DNA from: an uncultured Fretibacterium sp.
GTDB lineage: Bacteria; Synergistota; Synergistia; Synergistales; Aminobacteriaceae
DNA length: 60,373 bases
Direction: 5' to 3'
Assembly: GCA_946183145.1 (NCBI GenBank)
Contig: CAMGZM010000014.1
Location: 1-60,373, forward strand
Shown: positions 50,640 through 53,143 of the stretch, piece by piece
Layout of the letters: each line of letters starts with the position of its first letter
How positions within the stretch are numbered: the first letter of the stretch is position 1
Notes under the pieces: generated by a model
Databases searched by the model: none
Told to the model about the DNA's origin: nothing
What the model saw: only the letters and a program-made list of their open reading frames with translations
Program-made: the position numbers and the translations under genes

Positions 50640-51854
50640 TTATCGTTTGCGTTCTCCGAGAATTTTCTTGTACATCTTTCGGACAAATGAATATATACCC
50701 GTCCTGAATGCAATTTTTCTCAGGAATGACTCCAGCCTCGTCTTGAATGTTCGGGGGAAAAATTTTCTCAGCGTCCCTTCTGGGTCATGGCCGAATGACT
50801 CCCAGAATTTTGCGTAACGCTCCTCATCTTTAGGAACAGGGTAAAACATTTCGCGAGAACTGACTCTCACTGCGTCGTCAGGATTGATTTTTGCGTGAAT
50901 GCAGCGTGATAATATTTCCGGCAGAATCCCGCGTCCCTTCTGCGTGTGAACAAGAATGCGTGTTATTCCGGCGTTGTGCGTGAATTTCCCGCTGTCTTTC
51001 GTGAAGTCGGAAGCGTCCCAGCAGTCCCACAATGTGAAGTCGCTGACCCTGTAGCGTTTCTTGAACTTGCACGAATAGCACAACGGACGGTCGCAAACGT
51101 TCGAGAAAAACGCACGCATCATTATGTTTGTCTCTATACCCTCATAAACCGAGCGTGATTTTTCCCTGACAACTGCAAACTGTGAGTAAAGATAGCTGTA
51201 TTTGTCCTTGTCCCTGAATCGCAAATCTTGAGCGTTCGCAGCGTCAACAATATTAAGAAACGCATTCCACACAGCCGGAGAAGATACAGCATGACAGACA
51301 ATATCAACCGTAACCAGCAGAGGCGCCTCGCTTTCACTGCCCAGAAATTTCAGCAAGCCTTCAACCTCGCAGGGAGTCCCGCTGAAGAGAACGCGCCTTC
51401 CTTCACGCAAAAATTTCCGTGCCTCGCTGAATGATTTTCCTTTGTCGCTCTGAACATATTTGCTGTTCCTGAAAGAGTGAAGCTCCCCGGAGTTTTCCGC
51501 GAACTTGTGAATCACCCTGAAATTTTCACCGTAACCAGCTCCGAATACGACTCCGCCCTCGTCAAGAACCGACTCAGCAATTGCCGTGAATGCTCCTCCT
51601 GATGTGCTGTCTTTGAGGATTTCGGGGTCTTTGTGCTGAATGATGTACGCTTCCTGCTCAAAGGCTGACTCTTTTTCCGGGTTAAGGATTGGGCAGACGG
51701 ACTCACATTTTCCGCAGCTGATACAAGTCTGAGTGTTTGCTGACGGATAAAGGAATCCCTGACTGTCTGGAGTCATTTCGATTGCGTTTACGGGGCAGAT
51801 GTTCATACACGCGGAACACCCGCAGCATTTTTCCTTGTCTTTTATCGTTATCAT
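50640..51854 (-). CDS. FrhB-type iron-sulfur protein (F420 hydrogenase/dehydrogenase beta-subunit family)
   Basis: A 404-residue protein. The N-terminal dicluster ferredoxin has CCGCSACMNICP and CISCGKCESVCP. The remainder is an FrhB-like fold (SGGAFTAIAESVLDEGG, FSGTPCEVEGLLKFLG). Members next to polysaccharide pyruvyl transferases occur in surface-glycan loci, where they probably deliver electrons to a sugar-modifying step. The ATG overlaps the stop of the pyruvyl transferase gene (ATGA). Confidence 0.85.
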   Translation of the reverse strand: MITIKDKEKCCGCSACMNICPVNAIEMTPDSQGFLYPSANTQTCISCGKCESVCPILNPEKESAFEQEAYIIQHKDPEILKDSTSGGAFTAIAESVLDEGGVVFGAGYGENFRVIHKFAENSGELHSFRNSKYVQSDKGKSFSEARKFLREGRRVLFSGTPCEVEGLLKFLGSESEAPLLVTVDIVCHAVSSPAVWNAFLNIVDAANAQDLRFRDKDKYSYLYSQFAVVREKSRSVYEGIETNIMMRAFFSNVCDRPLCYSCKFKKRYRVSDFTLWDCWDASDFTKDSGKFTHNAGITRILVHTQKGRGILPEILSRCIHAKINPDDAVRVSSREMFYPVPKDEERYAKFWESFGHDPEGTLRKFFPRTFKTRLESFLRKIAFRTGIYSFVRKMYKKILGERKR

Positions 51855-52335
51855 GATCGAGCCTCCAATGATTCGCGTAAAAATTTCAGTGATGACTCGC
51901 GGAATGCCTGCAATTTTTCCCGCACTGAATGAGAGTCGAACTCACGCGCAAGAGATTCTGACGGGCTGTCGTTTTGACTCACGAACCTTGATATGATTCC
52001 CAAGTGTGAAGCGATTGATTCGATTCGTGTGTTTGTTGAGAGTGTTGAATTTCCTGAAAAGCGTCGGAATGTGAGAAACTTTTTGCCGTAAATCAGCGAG
52101 AACATTGTGCCGTGAAAAGAGTCTGTGAAAACATATTCGGCGTTCTTGATGAGATTCACGAAATCTGCGGGCGTTACGCTGTAGGGTCTTTCGTCTGCGT
52201 ATGGCTTTTCGTCAAACGCTATATACTGGTCGAGATGAGGAAGCGCGATGACTTTCAGCCCTAAAATTTTCGCAAGCTCACGTACAAATTTTCTCTGCCA
52301 TTCGTTTGCGCCGAGAAGATAACAAAATACGTAAG

Positions 52336-52345
52336 CCCCCCCCCC
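52336..52345 (-). repeat. Homopolymeric G10 tract in coding sequence
   Basis: Ten C on the plus strand (G on the coding strand) inside the pyruvyl transferase gene. Nine G restores the frame. Tracts of this length are classic phase-variation switches, but they are also sites of sequencing error. Confidence 0.8.
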
Positions 52346-52566
52346 TATGTTCAGTATAATTACGGTTGATTAATACATTATCCCATTCATCAGACGTAAG
52401 AAGCAATGTAGGATCGCAAACTAATTCGGCGTTTTGTCCTGTGAGAGTCTTTACGATTTCCTGCCCTGATTTTTCGCGGACTGAAAGATGATTTATGCGC
52501 GACAAAAATTTTCGTGCTTTTTCCTCCTGCGCTTTCTCGACGTAAGAGACTCCGAAACTTGAAGCG

Positions 52567-52596
52567 TATGAGATTCGTTTTTATGAGATTCGTTTT
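52567..52596 (-). repeat. Perfect 15-bp tandem duplication creating a stop
   Basis: TATGAGATTCGTTTT occurs twice without a gap. On the coding strand the second unit inserts TAA-KRIS between KRIS and YASS. Length 15 keeps the frame, so the only damage is the stop codon. Confidence 0.9.
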
Positions 52597-53143
52597 ACTT
52601 CATCGGGAACAAAGTTAAGCGTGAAGAAATCCCCGGCGATTTGCGAGGGCAGCCACACTTGATCGCTTCCCACAAGAACGGCTGAATATTCGCGGCATGA
52701 GTCAGAAAGATTTTCCCACGATTCAAACAGGCGGGAACGTTTTATCATCTCGCGCCTGAAATCGCTGAATAATTTTCCGCGTGTTGAGCTTCCTTTTCTG
52801 TATTCGGGGTGAAAGAGCTTGTGAAATTTTTTGAGTGCCATGCTTCCTTTTTCTTTCACGATTGAGGCATCGAATATTTTTCCTGCGAAGTAACGTAATT
52901 TTCTCCTGCGTATTGATTTCTTCAACGCCGTGAAATTTATTGCTTCTGTCTCATAACCCAAGTCGTTAATTTTCCGGCAAGTTGCGAACGCCTGAAGAAC
53001 AGTCCCGTAATTGTCCGCATAATCACCGAGGGCGAGCAAAATTTTTCCGGGCATAAGTGATTCACTCCTTTTGTGTTTGGGATTGATGGCCGGAATTTTA
53101 GCATAATGTGAATGCGGCGGGGATTCATTCTTTGCGTGAATGA

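Follow-up and report, generated by a model that had tools for sequence, protein, structure and literature searches.

A poly-G tract in a polysaccharide pyruvyl transferase gene of Fretibacterium as a well-supported candidate for a slipped-strand phase switch

Phase variation by poly-G tracts is best known from host-adapted proteobacterial pathogens. The epsilonproteobacteria are poor in mismatch repair. The poly-G loci of Campylobacter are short G runs inside ORFs, which are located mainly in surface-modification genes, and the genomes show mixed ON and OFF states; about 95% of the in-ORF tracts have G on the coding strand and about 5% have C (PhasomeIt survey, PMC6321876). The homopolymeric-tract genes of Helicobacter canadensis follow a translational on/off logic, with dozens of tracts per genome and with length variation seen in the sequencing reads (PMC2823697). 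The PF04230 family of polysaccharide pyruvyl transferases includes CsaB (Paenibacillus alvei) and Pvg1p (yeast), and the residues R148 and H308 of CsaB have a role in PEP binding (PMC10435577).

The locus described here lies in a 60,373-nucleotide stretch (the window) of an uncultured Fretibacterium sp.; the window is contig 14 of a draft genome of 2.55 Mb in 25 contigs (G000). It resembles the Campylobacter loci in its short coding-strand G runs within ORFs, its mainly surface-modifying targets, and its mixture of ON and OFF genomes. However, the organism belongs to the Synergistota, MutS and MutL are present, the runs are somewhat longer (9-15), and the tract is well inside the gene, at the linker between two PF04230 domains. 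The number of tracts per genome and the translational logic are also similar to those of H. canadensis, whereas the variation seen here is only between species. The enzyme belongs to the same Pfam family as CsaB and Pvg1p and may have the same two-domain fold, with the arginine of an SVRE motif and the histidine of an FHGT motif at plausible PEP-binding positions; it is, however, distant from both in sequence, and it is paired with an FrhB-like protein. Poly-G contingency loci are of a known kind, and a pyruvyl transferase is a new target. Among open-licence papers, no literature joining the Synergistaceae with phase-variable genes was found, and earlier reports are possible; the papers that name both Synergistetes and phase variation have other subjects, as far as their titles and abstracts tell.

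An earlier note on the window had described a pyruvyl transferase gene with two lesions, a G10 tract that sets the two halves one base apart and a perfect 15-bp tandem duplication that brings in a TAA. Both lesions were confirmed (Table 1), and the duplication adds K-R-I-S followed by the stop. Frame 0 is coding upstream of the tract, starting from the ATG at 53054 on the minus strand. The N-terminal piece covers positions 1-162 of the PF04230 profile, with one TAA inside; the C-terminal half (profile 188-276) is in the +1 frame and runs to the stop at 51851-51853. The two halves score 68.7 and 49.8 bits against a cut-off of 25.3, and the C-terminal half alone reaches 52.3 bits, above the Pfam cut-off. 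A length change at the tract would therefore alter the frame of a conserved protein, the halves of which are in frames 0 and +1. Judging from its family, the enzyme probably modifies a cell-surface glycan with pyruvate ketals. Since the counterpart of the PEP-binding histidine lies downstream of the tract, the OFF product should be inactive.

Table 1. Features of the pyruvyl transferase locus, in window coordinates.
Feature	Position	Strand	State and basis
PF04230 polysaccharide pyruvyl transferase gene	51851..53054	-	OFF as assembled, two lesions; Pfam, ortholog
G10 tract, putative slippage switch, interdomain linker	52336..52345	- (C10 on +)	sequence, orthologs, predicted coil
Perfect 15-bp tandem duplication, 2 copies, private to G000	52567..52596	-	sequence, orthologs
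In-frame TAA made by the duplication	52581..52583	-	sequence
TGA ending frame 0 shortly past the tract	52278..52280	-	sequence
Arg of SVRE motif, probable counterpart of CsaB R148	52476..52478	-	upstream of the tract; equivalence inferred
His of TDSFHGT motif, probable counterpart of CsaB H308	52112..52114	-	downstream of the tract; equivalence inferred
FrhB/FdhB-like 4Fe-4S protein gene	50640..51854	-	Pfam PF04432, PF04422, Fer4; sequence

The stop codon of the transferase overlaps the ATG of the FrhB-like gene by 4 bp (ATGA), and the FrhB-like gene has a GGAGG of its own. Through coupled translation, the partner may also be affected by the state of the transferase. The same pair was found at L074 (1932-4334, on a contig labelled as a Ruminococcus MAG), beside a GT4 gene and a deacetylase-like gene. 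The transferase and the FrhB-like protein thus form a recurring module of glycan loci.

Apart from the G10 tract, no homopolymer in the window exceeds 8 nucleotides. In the whole 2.55-Mb genome, 27 G/C runs of at least 9 were found, against 0.29 expected by extrapolating the decay of run lengths. The A/T runs of at least 9 served as a control: 42 were found against about 200 expected by the same extrapolation, and there was no excess. A chance origin of the G runs was rejected by these two comparisons. Runs of at least nine G are present in all 43 genomes of the genus, with up to 59 per genome, and in most genomes of an order-level sample (range 0 to 78). Two genomes from other families of the order, G071 (78 runs) and G091 (76 runs), have more than any genome of the genus; they may have phasomes of their own, or they may just have a higher G+C content.

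Ninety-one tracts were read in three genomes, and 33 of these are inside long open frames. The frame phase was called by the lengths of the open frames, as codon-usage scoring was too weak for the short sides. G is on the coding strand in 31 of the 33 in-gene tracts and C in 2, and the 31 G tracts are distributed over the phases 0, +1 and +2 as 7, 12 and 12. By Pfam, the tract genes are mainly glycosyltransferases (GT2, GT4, GT6, GT10, FucT, Caps_synth), together with other surface-glycan genes: LicD, MBOAT, O-antigen ligase, NTP transferase, CMP-sugar synthetase-like, CDP-alcohol phosphotransferase, and FkbM methyltransferase. Some of the tract genes have no Pfam match. No glycan classes were found in a small set of control genes, consisting of nine other genes of the window and one from L073. 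Loss of mismatch repair was considered as the cause of the many tracts and is unsupported, because mutS and mutL are both present and intact in the genome. With intact MutS and MutL, the rate of slippage may be moderate or slower.

The position of the tract in the fold was examined with a structure model of a tract-free homologue (L074), which is of moderate quality (pLDDT 66, pTM 0.70). The tract site corresponds to a coil between two Rossmann-like domains. As far as this model can tell, a G run would be well placed in such a loop, which should tolerate additional glycines. The Foldseek search with the model identified GT-B enzymes and, at a lower rank, yeast Pvg1p (5ax7), with a TM-score of about 0.5 and a high rmsd; sequence searches against the solved structures in the PDB gave no match. 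A second PF04230 subfamily (G011, G021, G034) has runs at the same linker, immediately ahead of the second domain's first strand; the three loci, L076 (G11), L077 (G11) and L082 (G10), are all out of frame. In a third subfamily, L184 (G021) has a G12 run at this linker and is in frame. Overall, 7 of the 8 PF04230 genes of the genus with a readable run of at least nine G share the +1 phase, and one is in frame. This is mildly odd for random drift, and chance together with shared ancestry is perhaps the explanation.

Two further PF04230 genes with G11 runs were observed. A CsaB/WcaK-like gene (L081, G031:C19, 1631-1641) has its run elsewhere in the gene, a few dozen residues upstream of its RYH motif, and is out of frame. 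In the other gene (L080, G033:C75, 2040-2050), the run is directly followed by a run of N, which may be an assembly gap or a masked stretch.

Orthologs of the transferase were compared in three genomes of the same genus (G031, G005, G065), which are different species; in all three, the FrhB-like gene follows the transferase. The G031 ortholog has G10 and the G005 ortholog has G9 at the identical site; each is one base out of frame and otherwise open. In G065, the tract is interrupted by A's (GGGGAGAGGGG), and an uninterrupted ORF of 395 aa is present. Extra inactivating changes are therefore not shared by the relatives: one copy is intact, and the other two are broken only by the phase of the tract. 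The tract thus differs in length and frame among the homologues, with G10, G10, G9 and an interrupted intact form in the orthologs, and the in-frame G12 in another subfamily. The G065 locus has the gene order of the window (TctA, FrhB, transferase, asd), apart from one additional small gene, and the G031 ortholog is flanked by a glycosyltransferase and a CDP-alcohol phosphotransferase. In G031, L175 (G031:C24) has two poly-G runs within 2.2 kb of one glycan cluster, one in the pyruvyl transferase gene and one in the adjacent CDP-alcohol phosphotransferase gene, and both genes are out of frame.

Two independent lesions in one gene, together with an intact G065 copy that has no pure tract, could also mean that both lesions are fixed and that the gene is a pseudogene decaying in this lineage. 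This explanation is unlikely. Across about 1,200 bp of the gene, there is no further stop or indel. The dN/dS between G000 and G065 is about 0.10 before the tract and about 0.14 after it, which indicates purifying selection on both halves, and private replacements in G000 do not outnumber those in the intact G065, so no acceleration specific to G000 is seen. These values fit a gene that is often functional, rather than an old pseudogene. In addition, three species have retained the tract at one site, and other PF04230 subfamilies have it there as well. A local variant of decay, in which the copy of this strain has been degenerating from the duplication onward, is still compatible with these results.

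Sequencing or assembly error is a less probable explanation, in which the true tract length differs from the assembled one and the duplication is an artefact. Short-read sequencing is known to be weak at poly-G, which is prone to errors. The assembly is at draft stage, and 4 of its 50 contig ends are at poly-G runs (C4 end, C18 start, C20 start, C22 end). However, mixed tract lengths would likewise break the contigs at such runs. Pure runs are also found at the same place in independent assemblies of other species, and errors would not favour the coding strand of glycan genes in this way.

The two lesions had been proposed in the earlier note as two slipped-strand switches. For the G tract, this proposal is supported by the orthologs, by the selection before and after the tract, and by the recurrence of such tracts in glycan genes throughout the genus. 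The second, independent reversible site at the duplication is not supported. Apart from this duplication, the window contains no perfect tandem duplication with a unit of 10 bp or more; its two copies are identical, and a collapse would remove the stop exactly. However, there are only two copies, and the extra 15-bp copy is private to G000, as none of the three orthologs has it. Slippage of a long G run is normally far more frequent than the collapse of such a short two-copy repeat. It is thus very improbable that the duplication gains and loses copies often enough to act as a switch of its own. It is more simply read as a private, probably recent insertion that occurred or persisted during an OFF state of the gene, and it may still collapse occasionally. 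Because its TAA lies upstream, slippage of the G run alone cannot turn the present allele on.

Programmed recoding, in which frameshifting by the ribosome or slippage of RNA polymerase on the G run would yield some full-length protein, was considered because of the shared +1 phase of the PF04230 genes and rejected as the least credible explanation, since the phases of the in-gene G tracts show no preferred shift, L184 is in frame, the tract lengths and flanks vary, and the upstream TAA blocks any such rescue of the G000 gene.

The results are best explained by a contingency locus, in which slippage of the G run toggles the PF04230 gene and the duplication is a separate private lesion rather than a second switch; the probability of this reading is estimated at roughly 0.8. 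That the G tract is a slipped-strand phase switch is well supported, though not proven. In the proposed mechanism, slipped-strand mispairing at the interdomain linker would change the run length, and this change would shift the downstream half, with the putative PEP-binding histidine, in or out of frame. The copy in the assembly is OFF, being one base out of frame at the tract. The tract variation known here lies between species; tract lengths may also switch within populations, and the cell surface would presumably be altered by such switching. The transferase tract is one of a few dozen poly-G runs of this genome, many of which are probable switches, mainly in surface-glycan genes.

For the genus as a whole, there is a good though not a strong likelihood that these gut Synergistaceae, and possibly much of the order, have a poly-G phasome of dozens of surface-glycan genes, in which the linker switch of PF04230 was gained in at least three subfamilies and the ATGA-coupled FrhB-like partner is maybe co-switched. 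The same architecture, with coding-strand G runs in glycosyltransferase, LicD, capsule, and pyruvyl transferase genes, occurs across a genus with gut members in another phylum. Many of the glycan genes that appear broken in such assemblies may be OFF-phase alleles and not pseudogenes, and the switching is a prediction testable in existing metagenome reads. The genus-wide pattern suggests stochastic diversification of surface glycans in commensals as well, perhaps as a defence against phages or host immunity.
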